Positions 41,579 to 52,501 of a DNA stretch of 64,000 bases are shown piece after piece. The stretch lies in the NCBI GenBank assembly GCA_021822495.1, contig JAKAQO010000001.1, forward strand, positions 248,001-312,000, in the 5' to 3' direction. This stretch comes from a bacterium (lineage in GTDB: Bacteria > Elusimicrobiota > Elusimicrobia > UBA1565 > UBA9628). Under the pieces are notes generated by a model that did not search any database, was not told the origin of the DNA, and worked only from the letters and a program-made list of their open reading frames with translations. The position numbers were made by a program, and so were the translations under genes. Positions within the stretch are counted from its first letter, which is position 1. The number at the start of each line of letters is the position of its first letter.

Positions 41579-41605
41579 CAGAATAATCTCCTGATTAAGT
41601 TTTTT

Positions 41606-41661
41606 GGTAGGAGTTATCATCCTCGGAGAGACCAAGGCTTTTAGGCGAACCCCATCGCCTG
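41606..41661 (-). ncRNA. Fluoride riboswitch (crcB motif)
   Basis: On the minus strand the leader of crcB reads GGCGATGGGGTTCGCC, a linker, a second paired region around GCCTTGGTCTCTCCGAGG, and then GATGATAACTCCTACC. The 5' GGCGATGG...CGCC stem-loop and the 3' ATGANNACTCCTACC block match the fluoride riboswitch consensus, including the pseudoknot-forming segments. It begins about 10 bp after the stop of the upstream gene and ends 28 bp before the crcB ATG, so ligand binding could expose or hide the AGGAG site or control termination. Fluoride switches expression on. Confidence 0.95.
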
Positions 41662-41670
41662 TGGTTTATT

Positions 41671-47135: not shown

Positions 47136-48734
47136 ATGGACCACGCGGAATTTGATTTTATCGTCGTTGGTAGCGGCATCGCTGGTCTTCTCAGCGCCCA
47201 CAAGCTCTCGGCCCTGGGGCGCACCGCTATTCTGACCAAGAAAGAAGCGGTCGAATCCAATACCAATTACGCGCAAGGGGGAATCGCTGCCGTCACAAGC
47301 CAAATCGACAGCTTTCAGCGCCATATCTCAGACACCCTCATCGCCGGGGCGGGTCTTTGCGACGAAAAAATAGTCGCAATGACCATCCAGGACGCTCCCG
47401 CGAGAATCAAAGAGCTTCAGGAAATTGGGGTTCGTTTCTCTCAAAAAAAGGGAACCGTTGATTTGGGGCTTGAAGCCGGCCATTCCGAAAGGCGCATTCT
47501 TCACGCCGGAGATATTACCGGTCATGAAATAGAACGGGCGCTCCTTCGCGCTTGTCAAAAAAATCCGCGCATTGATATTTTTGAAAATGAAATCGGCATT
47601 GATTTGATTCTCGATAAAAACGGCCATTGCCGCGGTCTCTATTCTTTGAGCCGGAAAAATGGAAAAATTCGCGCATTCTCGGCCAAGGCCGTCATTTTGG
47701 CGACCGGAGGAGCCGGAAAGGTCTACCTGGTCACGACCAACCCGGACATCGCCACCGGAGATGGAATGGCCATGGCCTACCGGGCGGGGGCCACTCTCGC
47801 GAATATGGAATTTGTCCAGTTTCATCCGACCTGCCTCTATCACCCGCAAGCAAAATCTTTTCTTTTATCTGAAGCGCTAAGAGGCGAAGGCGGAAAACTG
47901 ATTTTAAAAAACGGGCAAGCCTTCATGAAAAAACACGACCCGCGGGCGGAGCTGGCCCCCCGGGACATCGTCGCCCGCGCCGTGGATTACGAACTCAAAA
48001 AATCGGGAGAACCCTGCGTTTATCTGGACATGACGCACAAGTCAAAAAAATTTCTGTCCCAGCGCTTCCCCAATATCGACCGCACGCTGAGAGAATATGG
48101 AATCGATATGTCCAAGACCCCGATTCCCGTCGTCCCCGCCGCTCACTTTTTCTGCGGAGGAGTCAAGGTTGACTCCGACTCCAGAACCGACATCCCCGGC
48201 TTATTCGCCGTTGGGGAAAACTCACAAACCGGCCTTCACGGCGCAAACCGCTTGGCTTCTAATTCTCTTTTGGAGGGTTGCGTTTTCGCCCATCGCCTTT
48301 TTCATCATATTAAAGACGATGACTCAATCCACCGCTTAAAGCCGTTTACGCCCAAAAGCTGGAACCCAGGAAAAGCCAAGGCCTTGGATGAGGCCGTCGT
48401 CATCACGCAAAACTGGGATGAAATTCGGCGTCTCATGTGGAACTACGTCGGAATCGTTCGCACAACCAAGAGACTTGAGCGCGCGTTAAGGAGAATGAAG
48501 CTCCTCAACGCGGAGATTAATCATTATTATTGGAACTTTTTTCTGACCCCGGATTTAATTGAACTACGAAACTTAGCGGATGTGGCCAGCGCCGTTATTT
48601 TGTCCGCTCTCCAAAGAAAAGAAAGCCGCGGACTTCATTACACGCTGGATTATCCCAAACCCGTTCCGGCCCAAAAGCATGATACCCTCATGAATAAAAA
48701 AATGGCATTAAGGCTTTTCGAACGGTTTAGTTAA
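47136..48734 (+). CDS. nadB: L-aspartate oxidase
   Basis: Flavoprotein that oxidises L-aspartate to iminoaspartate, the first step of de novo NAD synthesis; 532 residues. FAD motif FIVVGSGIAGLLSAHKLSAL is at 8-27, the TNYAQGGIAAV motif near 45 is diagnostic, and LHGANRLASNSLLEGCVFA lies near 370. Succinate-dehydrogenase flavoproteins are excluded by the TNYAQGG block and the absence of partner subunits. In anaerobes the electron acceptor would be fumarate or another compound. nadA and nadC are not in the window. A divergent start faces the gamma carbonic anhydrase gene. Confidence 0.95.
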   Translation: MDHAEFDFIVVGSGIAGLLSAHKLSALGRTAILTKKEAVESNTNYAQGGIAAVTSQIDSFQRHISDTLIAGAGLCDEKIVAMTIQDAPARIKELQEIGVRFSQKKGTVDLGLEAGHSERRILHAGDITGHEIERALLRACQKNPRIDIFENEIGIDLILDKNGHCRGLYSLSRKNGKIRAFSAKAVILATGGAGKVYLVTTNPDIATGDGMAMAYRAGATLANMEFVQFHPTCLYHPQAKSFLLSEALRGEGGKLILKNGQAFMKKHDPRAELAPRDIVARAVDYELKKSGEPCVYLDMTHKSKKFLSQRFPNIDRTLREYGIDMSKTPIPVVPAAHFFCGGVKVDSDSRTDIPGLFAVGENSQTGLHGANRLASNSLLEGCVFAHRLFHHIKDDDSIHRLKPFTPKSWNPGKAKALDEAVVITQNWDEIRRLMWNYVGIVRTTKRLERALRRMKLLNAEINHYYWNFFLTPDLIELRNLADVASAVILSALQRKESRGLHYTLDYPKPVPAQKHDTLMNKKMALRLFERFS

Positions 48735-48771
48735 AATGGACCGAATGAAACGTTTTTTTGATATTTTTTAA

Positions 48772-48800
48772 TTGCGTGAACCGCAGGGACATGTTATAAT
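48772..48800 (+). promoter_or_regulatory. Consensus promoter of the three-way-junction RNA
   Basis: TTGCGT (48772-48777), a 17-bp spacer and a perfect TATAAT (48795-48800). The predicted transcription start at 48807 is exactly the first base of the outer RNA stem. This coincidence strongly supports a designed RNA transcript. Confidence 0.8.
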
Positions 48801-48806
48801 ATAATT

Positions 48807-48884
48807 GTAGCTGAGAGGGTCGCCTTATTTGCGACTCGTCGCGCGCGAATAAATCCGTGCGCGCTCGGCTGCCTTTTTATTTTC
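48807..48884 (+). ncRNA. Structured RNA upstream of a DUF3800 gene (DUF3800-type motif candidate)
   Basis: The RNA folds into a three-way junction. P1 pairs GTAGCTGAG (48807-48815) with CTCGGCTGC (48864-48872), nine pairs with two G-U wobbles. P2 pairs GGGTCGC (48817-48823) with GCGACTC (48831-48837). P3 pairs GCGCGCG (48841-48847) with CGTGCGC (48856-48862). The two loops are A/T-rich and complementary: TTATT (48825-48829) can kiss AATAA (48848-48852). A U-rich tract CTTTTTATTTTC follows P1, as in a terminator. The next ATG, of a DUF3800 gene, is at 48892. Published surveys list several DUF3800 RNA motifs in exactly this position; function is unknown. Confidence 0.75.
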
Positions 48885-48891
48885 TCGCCGT

Positions 48892-49629
48892 ATGTATATT
48901 CTCTATCTGGACGAGTCGGGAAATCCCTCTGGCTGGAATAAAGGACAGCGCAATCTTGTATTGGGAGGCGTAGCCGTTTTTGAAGGAGAAATACGAAAAA
49001 TTACTAGTTCCGTGGATGCCCTCCAAAACAAATATTTCCCAGGAATACCTATTCCACTTGAGTTTCACTCCAGCGAAATTTTTTCTGGAAAGAACGCTTT
49101 CCGCGCCTTGCCTTATGATGATCGTAAATCTATTCTTAAGGATTTAGCCTCTGTTTTAACATCTAATTCCATAACGACATTCGCTACTGGCATCCACATA
49201 AGTCAGGTCCATTCGCCCGATCAAGCCCTCCAAGACGTTTTCGGAGATGTTTGCACGCGTTTTAATACCATGTTATTGCGGCACCACCATGCCGATAAGC
49301 CCCAGAAAGGACTGCTGATTATTGATAAATCTCAATATTCCGAAAAACTCTTCCAAGATATGATTAGTTTCCGAAAATCAGGAACAAAGCACGCCGCGTA
49401 TTTGGGAAACATCGTAGACATCCCTTATTTCACGGATTCCCACAGAACGCGGATCATGCAACTGGCCGATTTCGTGGCCTGGACATTTTTTCGCTGTTTG
49501 GAGCATGGAGACGGATCATTTCTAACCTCAATTCTTTCTTGTTTCGATCGCGGAGACTCCCAGGCCAATCTCTCCGATGGCCTTAAACACATGACGGTGG
49601 AACCTTGCTCCTGTCCGGCAAGGCACTAA
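48892..49629 (+). CDS. DUF3800 domain protein
   Basis: A 245-residue DUF3800 protein, thought to have an RNase H-like fold. The opening [13 protein letters not shown] places Asp7 and Glu8 as likely metal ligands. [17 protein letters not shown] near 140 and the C-terminal [13 protein letters not shown] with a conserved Asp complete the expected acidic set. No ribosome site precedes the ATG; instead the structured RNA ends 8 bp upstream. The gene lies 13 bp before uvrA. It is more A+T-rich than nadB and uvrA beside it, which hints at independent acquisition as an RNA-protein module. Confidence 0.85.
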
Positions 49630-49642
49630 ACGGATCGAAAAA

Positions 49643-52501
49643 ATGGACCGAATCATTATCCGAGGCGCAAGGCAGCACAACCTTAAAAACATTTCTCTCG
49701 AACTTCCAAAAAACAAGCTCGTCGTCATCACCGGGCTTTCGGGCTCAGGAAAGTCCTCTCTCGCTTTCGACACCCTCTACGCCGAGGGACAACGACGCTA
49801 TGTTGAAAGCCTTTCGGCTTATGCGAGGCAATTTCTGGAACTCATGGAGAAACCCGATGTGGATTTAATCGAGGGCTTGTCCCCGGCGATTGCCATCGAA
49901 CAAAGAAACCCGTCTCATAATCCGCGCTCGACCGTCGCGACCACGACCGAAATTTACGATTATCTGCGCCTGTTATTTGCCCGTATTGGACGCCCGCATT
50001 GCCCAAAATGCAAGCGTCCGGTTAAAAAACAATCTCCCCAAGCCATTACTCAGGAAACTCTAAATTTATTTCCCGGACAATCCGTCTCCATCTGGTCTCC
50101 CCTAGTCATGGGCCGTACCGGGACCTACGAGGAACTTTTCAATCGCCTGAAACGCTCGGGGTATGTCAAGGTCCGGATAGACGGAAAAATTTCGGAGCTC
50201 GATTCGACCCCCAAACTCAGTCGTTACGCCAAACACGTCATCGAACTGTTCATTGATACGGTTGACGCCGTTCAGGAAGAAAAAAACCGGCTTTTCGAAT
50301 CCCTAGAAACCGCGCTCAAAGAATCCCGGGGGCTGGTCCGAATCGAACCCTCAAAAAAAGCGGCTCAAGGGGTTTTAATGAGCGAACATAATGCCTGCCC
50401 GGAATGCGGGCTGAGTCTTCCGGAACTCGAACCGCGGCTCTTCTCCTTTAATTCTCCTTATGGGGCTTGTCCCTCTTGCGACGGAATTGGACAAAAAACG
50501 GAGGTTGACCCTGATTTAGTGATTCCCGATCCCTCTCTTTCCATTCAAGACGGCGCCATTGTCGCCTGGGATGACCCGGTCACCACCCGAACCAACCGCT
50601 GGAAAAAATCCTGGTCCGGGTATTATACGGAAATTCTGGAAACCATTTGCCGCCAACATGGAATTAACCCGAGAACGCCTTGGTCGGAACTTTCACAAAA
50701 ACACAAGGAAATCATTCTTTACGGCGGCGGACATTACCGGCCTCATTGGGCGAAAAACGATCAAGAGTATGAAGGGATTATTCCTAATCTTGAACGCCGG
50801 TATAAAGAAACCGAATCGGAATTTGTCAAAAGCGCCATAGTCGAGCGCTTCATGCGAAAAGGAGAATGCCCTGATTGCCATGGGGCCCGTCTTAAACCCG
50901 AAGCCCTGGCGGTTTTAGTCGGCGGCAAAAATATTCGCGAAGTCACCGCCCTTTCCATTTCCCAGGCTTACGCCTTCGTTCAGAATCTCGATTTAACCGC
51001 GACCGAAAAAACCATCGCCAAGATGATCCTTAAGGAAATACTCTCGCGGCTAGAATTTTTAACCAACGTCGGGCTCGATTATCTAACATTGGACCGCGCG
51101 TCTGAAACCTTGGCCGGAGGAGAAGCGCAGAGAATTCATCTAGCTACTCAAATTGGTTCGGGGCTCAGCGGAGTTCTCTATGTTCTTGACGAACCTTCCA
51201 TCGGCCTTCACCCGCGAGATAACACCCGGCTTCTCTCGACTTTAAAGCGCCTTCGCGACATTGGAAACACCTTGATCGTCGTCGAACATGACGAAGAAAC
51301 GATGCTTAACGCCGACTGGATCGTCGATCTCGGGCCGGGAGCGGGCATTCACGGAGGCCAAATTATCGCGCAAGGAACGCCTAAACAGATTTTGGCCTCG
51401 AAGACTTCTCTGACCGGGGCCTATCTGAGGGGAGACAAAAAACCTCTTCAAAAGCGCGCCTTGCGGCGTCCAAGCGCGAGACAATTTATATCCATCCTAG
51501 GCGCGAAACAATTTAATCTTAAGAATATCGACGTCAAAATTCCTCTCGGCCTTTTCGTCTCGGTGACAGGAGTCTCGGGATCGGGAAAGTCAACCTTGGT
51601 TCATGAAATTCTTTACAAAGCTCTCGCTCGAAAATTTTACGCCTCCAAGGACGCGCCGGGAGTCCACCGAAGCCTGACAGGAGTGGAAAACATAGACAAA
51701 GTGATTGTCGTCGATCAATCCCCCATCGGCCGAACTCCGCGCTCAAACCCGGCCACCTATACCGGACTTTGGTCTCCGATTCGGGAAATATTCTCTCAGT
51801 TGCCGCAGTCGCGGGCAAGGGGTTATAAACCGGGGCGTTTTTCTTTTAATGTGAAGGGCGGGCGATGCGAAAATTGTTCCGGAGACGGCTCCCTTCAAAT
51901 CTCGATGCAATTTTTGCCCGATGTTTACGTACCTTGCGAGGAATGTCGGGGAGCGCGCTTTAACGAGGAAACCCTTTCCATCCGCTATAAAGGAAAAAAT
52001 ATCGCCGAGGTCTTGGCCATGAGCGTTGAAGAAGCCCGAACGTTTTTTGAAAACCATCCCCTCTTGTCTCGAATCCTAAAAACCATCGAGGACGTGGGCC
52101 TTGGATACATCACGCTTGGGCAAGCCGCGACCACTCTCTCTGGAGGAGAAGCCCAGAGAGTCAAACTTGCCGCCGAACTGGGACGTCGAGACACCGGTAA
52201 AACCCTCTATATTTTGGATGAGCCCACAACCGGGCTTCATTTCGCCGACGTAGATAAACTCATCAACGTCCTTCACCGGCTTGTCGATCATGGAAACACG
52301 GTCCTGGTCATTGAGCATAATCTTGACGTGATTCGCAATTCCGACTGGATTATTGATTTGGGTCCGGAAGGGGGATCTGGAGGTGGACGTTTAATCGCGG
52401 AAGGAACGCCTCAAGACATCACCCAGAATTCTCATTCACACACCGGGCAATATCTTGAAATTAATCCAGCAACCTGTTACACTAATTCCAGGAGCTCCTA
52501 A
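49643..52501 (+). CDS. uvrA: Excinuclease ABC subunit A
   Basis: DNA damage recognition ATPase of nucleotide excision repair, 952 residues. Two ABC modules are complete: Walker [17 protein letters not shown] near 31 and [16 protein letters not shown] near 642, with signatures [16 protein letters not shown] and [16 protein letters not shown]. Zinc modules are visible as [18 protein letters not shown]...CPSC and CENCSGDG...CEECRG. Length and order are standard. uvrB and uvrC are not in the window. The downstream Pro-rich gene starts at the base after its stop. Confidence 0.98.

Follow-up and report, generated by a model that had tools for sequence, protein, structure and literature searches.

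A probable small-RNA gene of the DUF3800-VI family in front of a predicted RNase H-fold nuclease gene

Background

The DUF3800 RNAs form a sizeable group of structured RNAs for which, to our knowledge, no purpose is known. DUF3800-VI was reportedly first described by Weinberg in 2017 in a set of 224 candidate RNAs. Rfam gives this family (RF02915) the type "Cis-reg", while its label for DUF3800-V, IX and X is that of a small-RNA gene, which the data presented below also fit for VI. Families V (RF02964) and IX (RF02968) resemble VI in that a compact RNA with a U tract lies beside a DUF3800 gene, but in the loci analysed here they are convergent with it (tail to tail) rather than upstream. Some Cas12a2 and type VI CRISPR loci have a DUF3800 protein attached (PMC10910872, PMC12669027), and an RNase H fold has already been reported from the model of a CRISPR-linked member (PMC10910872).

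Two groups of described systems share the layout of DUF3800-VI. In RCd22 of Clostridioides difficile, two abiF motifs are followed by a terminator with read-through into abiF, a layout established by RACE (PMC12373285). Like DUF3800-VI, AbiF-RCd22 combines a promoter, motif copies, a Rho-independent terminator and a nuclease gene reached by read-through, and also occurs in phages (PMC12373285). However its protein is of the Abi_2/HEPN type and its RNA is different, and toxicity and neutralisation have been demonstrated there whereas for DUF3800-VI they are predictions. The type III toxin-antitoxin systems ToxIN, CptIN and TenpIN similarly carry an RNA gene, a terminator and a nuclease gene on the same strand, and their antitoxins form tandem RNA units in some loci (PMC5086642). 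DUF3800-VI differs from them by a three-way junction instead of a pseudoknot, by a predicted RNase HII-like instead of a ToxN fold, and by having usually one RNA unit.

Results and discussion

Promoter, fold and ends of the RNA

The window, i.e. the whole stretch of 64,000 nucleotides analysed, carries on its forward strand a promoter with an extended -10 (TGTTATAAT, 48772-48800). The -10 TATAAT (48795-48800) is extended by TGT and separated by a spacer of 17 nt from the -35 TTGCGT (48772-48777). The initial annotation described this as a consensus promoter; the coordinates that it gives for promoter, RNA and gene are correct, as is the spacer, but the -35 is weak, agreeing with TTGACA at only 3 of 6 positions. 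The seventh base past the -10, G48807, opens the outer stem and is the likely start, as the annotation had proposed, and the same phase is found in the family.

The RNA (48807-48872, +) folds as a three-way junction, supported by the Rfam model, folding and the family alignment. P1 (48807-48815/48864-48872, 9 bp) is followed by A48816, P2 (48817-48823/48831-48837, 7 bp) by GU (48838-48839), and P3 (48840-48847/48856-48863, 8 bp) completes the junction. Its folding energy of -37.1 kcal/mol is reached by none of 200 shuffles, which average -23.6 (z -4.43). Directly 3' of P1 lies a U tract (CTTTTTATTTT; C-TTTTT-A-TTTT at 48873-48883) which, together with the junction, makes a terminator-like end also seen as a pattern in the family. 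From the start and the U tract the predicted transcript is ~77 nt long, in line with the three-stemmed, U-ending RNA of about 78 bases originally suggested. Comparison with the covariance models (cmscan) confirmed the suspected membership in the DUF3800 RNAs: RF02915 scores 39.7 bits (gathering score 35; E 1e-4 for the whole window), and structure and position agree with this assignment. The start codon of the DUF3800 gene (48892) lies 20 nt 3' of the RNA, which is present as a single, non-tandem copy, and no Shine-Dalgarno sequence precedes it.

Two loops of the window copy are complementary over 6 nt, as had been noticed initially. This is not a family feature: no other of the 86 members shows the 6-nt complementarity, and the mean complementary run between loops is 2.52 in the family against 2.51 after re-dealing the loops. 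The complementarity is thus peculiar to the window copy, conserved mutual pairing is lacking, and the idea of kissing loops was dropped. The fold is a nested three-way junction with no pseudoknot.

Conservation of the RNA-gene pair

Homologous structures were found upstream of related DUF3800 genes, the lack of which would have refuted the initial annotation: in 85 tabulated loci, from many bacterial phyla, an archaeon, phages and plasmids, the gene has the RNA in front of it. This layout, with its promoter, terminator, tandem-copy and lesion patterns, is what is new here, although part of it may already be contained in the original description of DUF3800 RNAs (Weinberg 2017). Relatives detected by tblastn lie on small enterobacterial plasmids, on Agrobacterium and Burkholderia plasmids and in Pseudomonas phages; cmscan placed DUF3800-VI just upstream of the gene in L065-L070 and L072, L065 being slightly below the cutoff. 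Searches of genome and viral contigs with single proteins retrieved no relatives and an alignment query was needed. It yielded 80 loci, whose titles include Bathyarchaeota, Chloroflexi, cyanobacteria, Bacteroidetes, Acidobacteria, proteobacteria and others, and 8 viral contigs.

A covariance model was built in two rounds (R1, then R2). R2 identified 86 RNAs in ~79 of 98 sources, all located 5' of the gene on the gene's strand, and found no match at E<=1 elsewhere in 646 kb on either strand. Most of these RNAs were in the training set and their scores are therefore not independent; the position and the absence of stray matches remain informative. With filters off, the remaining loci mostly have their best match at the same place, several being too weak to count alone. 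For L134, L118 and L127 the RNA was recognised by folding or by eye, and the RNA of L090 has almost lost P3. Over 83 distinct alignment rows, pairing holds in 97% of cells, and double changes occur at 18 of 20 pairs. The covariation score is 0.711; shuffles give 0.326 and slid partners no more than 0.165, the alignment having been fitted to the model and being somewhat favourable. The junction letters A and G-Y (A, GY) are conserved, and loops are similar within lineages. A gammaproteobacterial variant carries an extra hairpin on the 5' side (GGUUGGAAACAAUC-like; L109, L118, L127, L130, L154).

Two further sets of candidates were rejected. Three extra R2 matches in the phylum (27-30 bits) are attributed to chance because no DUF3800 gene is close to them and they resemble LemA-type coding sequence. 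In viral contigs, a degenerate DNA pattern of the RNA gave 43 matches, none with a DUF3800 ORF recognised by a small HMM, and these were also considered fortuitous.

Signals of an independent transcription unit

The spacing observed in the window recurs in the family. In the 72 loci from outside the Bacteroidota, -10-like hexamers (at least 5 of 6 positions) lie 7 and 8 nt 5' of P1 in 13 and 19 loci (32/72), while distant positions mostly have 0-2 loci each. Two-hexamer promoters occur in 29 of the 72 against 1.4 expected from mononucleotide shuffles, the loci being mutually related so that these and the following counts are not independent events. The Bacteroidota carry TAnnTTTG 5-7 nt 5' of P1 in 11 of 13 cases. 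The distance from the RNA end to the start codon on the same strand is 7-84 nt in 84 of 85 loci (544 nt in L110). P1 runs into a U tract in 47 loci, 32 have a terminator hairpin, and 74 have at least one of the two; five more loci, missed by the length rule of the script, have TTTTTTT joined directly to ATG. At least 79 of 85 loci thus show the sequence pattern of a U tract or terminator between RNA and start codon, often touching the ATG. Where TTTTTTT abuts the ATG, no room is left for another promoter between RNA and gene. In Proteobacteria, a separate terminator hairpin and a ribosome site follow the RNA. In seven loci a single promoter precedes two tandem RNA copies, which are about 56-84 nt apart.

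P1 and its U tract resemble an ordinary promoter-proximal terminator. It is barely credible that the element is nothing more, since it has three covarying helices, the conserved A and GY, tandem copies and extra terminators downstream. An autoregulatory leader or attenuator, as the Rfam type would have it, deserves more attention: the RNA would only control the DUF3800 mRNA, with the protein or a ligand changing read-through of the terminator. The shared strand, the short distance to the start codon and the U tract at that codon agree with a leader. The tandem copies behind one promoter, as well as the separate terminator hairpin and ribosome site in Proteobacteria, do not, and no alternative antiterminator was noticed in a non-systematic inspection.

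The other DUF3800 genes bear on the same question. There are four in this 2.2-Mb genome, and two of the other three face a convergent RNA encoded on the opposite strand. At L003, a DUF3800-IX RNA is convergent with the gene and overlaps its end. At L005, a promoter and a three-way-junction RNA are convergent with the gene, the RNA ending at its stop codon; it has no Rfam match and is also found in five further genomes (L166-L170), i.e. in six genomes of the phylum. More distant relatives have convergent DUF3800-V RNAs, and no partner RNA was noticed for the fourth gene (L002). An RNA that converges on the 3' end of a gene cannot be its leader, and partners of DUF3800 genes therefore need not be part of the mRNA. 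Because of the phase-locked promoter, the terminator before the gene, the tandem copies and these convergent RNAs, we consider a leader doubtful, and the DUF3800-VI RNA very probably is an independent small-RNA gene. The obvious reading of its signals is that the small RNA would be produced in surplus, transcription only rarely continuing into the nuclease gene.

Several observations concern the convergent type. The L005 RNA (L005:1292-1400, genome C4 near 175.6 kb), with its own promoter and U tract, is apparently undescribed; the unit sits at the beginning of an hsdR-like gene, whose start is imperfectly repeated over ~45 bp (L005:1201-1250 and about 2066-2115). RNA-like sequences (GTAAGTCCTT...GGGGTTCC) with no Rfam match are convergent with DUF3800 genes in L171, L174 and L183. 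In L178:119-3611, DUF3800-V RNAs recur four times in roughly 1-kb steps, one of them scoring slightly below the gathering threshold, which suggests a tandem array of DUF3800-RNA units. A truncated tRNA-like sequence lies upstream of the L002 gene (L002:1261-1310), with a tyrosine-recombinase-like ORF near the gene.

The DUF3800 protein

The gene (48892-49629, +) encodes a DUF3800 protein of 245 aa (PF12686, 62.5 bits). A sequence search of solved structures gave no match for it. An AlphaFold model built from 62 relatives has a mean pLDDT of 95.3, and its top fold matches are RNase HII/H2/HIII (Foldseek E 3e-4 to 5e-4 for the best three). By VIA, the model aligns with RNase HII/H2 over 166 residues (Z 11.7, rmsd 3.5), whereas the matches to Argonaute and RNase HI have a Z of about 7; ToxN is missing from the list of matches headed by RNase HII/H2, an absence which is no proof. 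The RNase H-fold enzyme anticipated by the initial annotation is therefore also what the structure model indicates. Y5, D7, G10, H59, Q190 and D193 are invariant in the 62 aligned relatives and D145 is present in 57. D7, H59, D193 (62/62) and D145 (57) form a putative active-site-like set, and the conserved D7-E8, D145 and D193 are candidate counterparts of the RNase HII DEDD set. DUF3800-VI proteins are thus predicted to be RNA- or DNA-cutting enzymes with a type 2 RNase H fold. They match the PADLOC candidates PDC-M04A and PDC-S51 weakly.

An RNase-H-type fold beside a structured RNA in a small mobile unit could evoke a nuclease guided by RNA, as in CRISPR or OMEGA systems. None of the 86 aligned RNAs shows a variable stretch suitable as a guide, the transcript seems to begin with the outer stem and to finish in the U tract, the loops are alike within lineages, and Cas12 and Argonaute fall well behind RNase HII/H2 among the fold matches. 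Such a function is highly improbable. Of the guided, regulated or inhibited nuclease units initially envisaged, the inhibited or regulated versions are the best supported.

Possible restraint of the nuclease by the RNA

We see about an even chance that the RNA binds and restrains the DUF3800 nuclease, the two forming an RNA-nuclease module. The family assignment, structure and conserved position of the RNA, its promoter and terminator signals and the predicted protein fold are computed; from these we infer transcript ends, read-through, binding, inhibition, toxicity and trigger as follows. Transcription would begin with the outer stem's first base and in most cases end at the U tract before the DUF3800 ATG, as the strongly conserved signals suggest. 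The nuclease would be made only by occasional read-through, so that the RNA would be in large excess over the protein. The folded RNA would bind the RNase HII-like enzyme directly and keep it inactive until it is lost or displaced, for example by a phage disturbing transcription. By analogy with AbiF-RCd22 and ToxIN, the free enzyme would then cut nucleic acid. The module would act like a type III toxin-antitoxin or abortive infection system, its RNA being a three-way junction rather than a pseudoknot and its enzyme having an RNase H rather than a ToxN or HEPN fold.

Restraint is supported by the RNA preceding the gene in 85 loci, the promoter phase, terminators, tandem copies, covariation, gene lesions, conserved residues and convergent partners. 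An activating RNA or an autoregulating, protein-bound leader would show many of these genomic features. Against restraint, most chromosomal neighbours are housekeeping rather than defence genes (105 ORFs, mostly housekeeping, with no control set), which led us to abandon the idea of a defence island, and the window RNA is single. If restraint is correct, a set of Rfam families would correspond to RNA partners of RNase-H-fold nucleases, and DUF3800-VI would be the second case, after AbiF, of an orphan RNA motif restraining a nuclease. It would also indicate the likely biochemistry of the DUF3800 proteins found at Cas12a2 and type VI CRISPR loci (PMC10910872, PMC12669027).

The RNA might instead be a cofactor or scaffold, a stable part of the RNP needed for nuclease activity or substrate choice and not a variable guide. 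The conserved junction letters are consistent with this, as is the close pairing of RNA type and protein subfamily: 11 loci of other DUF3800 subfamilies gave no convincing R2 match and the RNA type therefore follows the subfamily. However the read-through coupling, which would keep the nuclease low, better fits restraint. Gene lesions point weakly in the same direction. Among about 82 loci, at least eight genes are damaged while the RNA is intact: a single in-frame stop is the only defect of the gene in each of L087, L107, L128 and L136; L077 has a TGA, L078 (L078/L009) a frameshift, plasmid L074 an ISSen4 insertion and L073 an annotated truncation. No intact gene in the whole set clearly lacks the RNA. 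The asymmetry is supportive but not statistically decisive, since the RNA is a roughly tenfold smaller target and MAG errors are possible; the E. coli plasmid set used for RNA loss, with 13 records, is too small. We therefore regard a cofactor role as unlikely.

Insertion between nadB and uvrA

The unit of the window (~0.9 kb) lies between nadB and uvrA. In four congeneric genomes uvrA directly follows nadB, and the unit is therefore an insertion into a site that is empty in those genomes. It is bordered by a 14-bp direct repeat (AAAATGGACCGAAT; left copy 48733-48746, right copy 49640-49653, both +), the right copy being at the start codon of uvrA. Direct flanking repeats of 14-95 bp reach the 99th percentile of mismatched-flank controls in 12 of 83 loci, some of which are weak or possibly correspond to shared terminators (L077) or plasmid repeats. 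The RNA-DUF3800 unit holds no recombinase or transposase. That the RNP is itself a selfish mobile unit, the nuclease and its bound RNA taking part in their own insertion or retention, appears very unlikely.

Direct repeats of flanking DNA also border the units at L143, L150, L115 and L091. Elsewhere in the window, a fluoride riboswitch was identified at 41601-41668 (-) with 47.1 bits.
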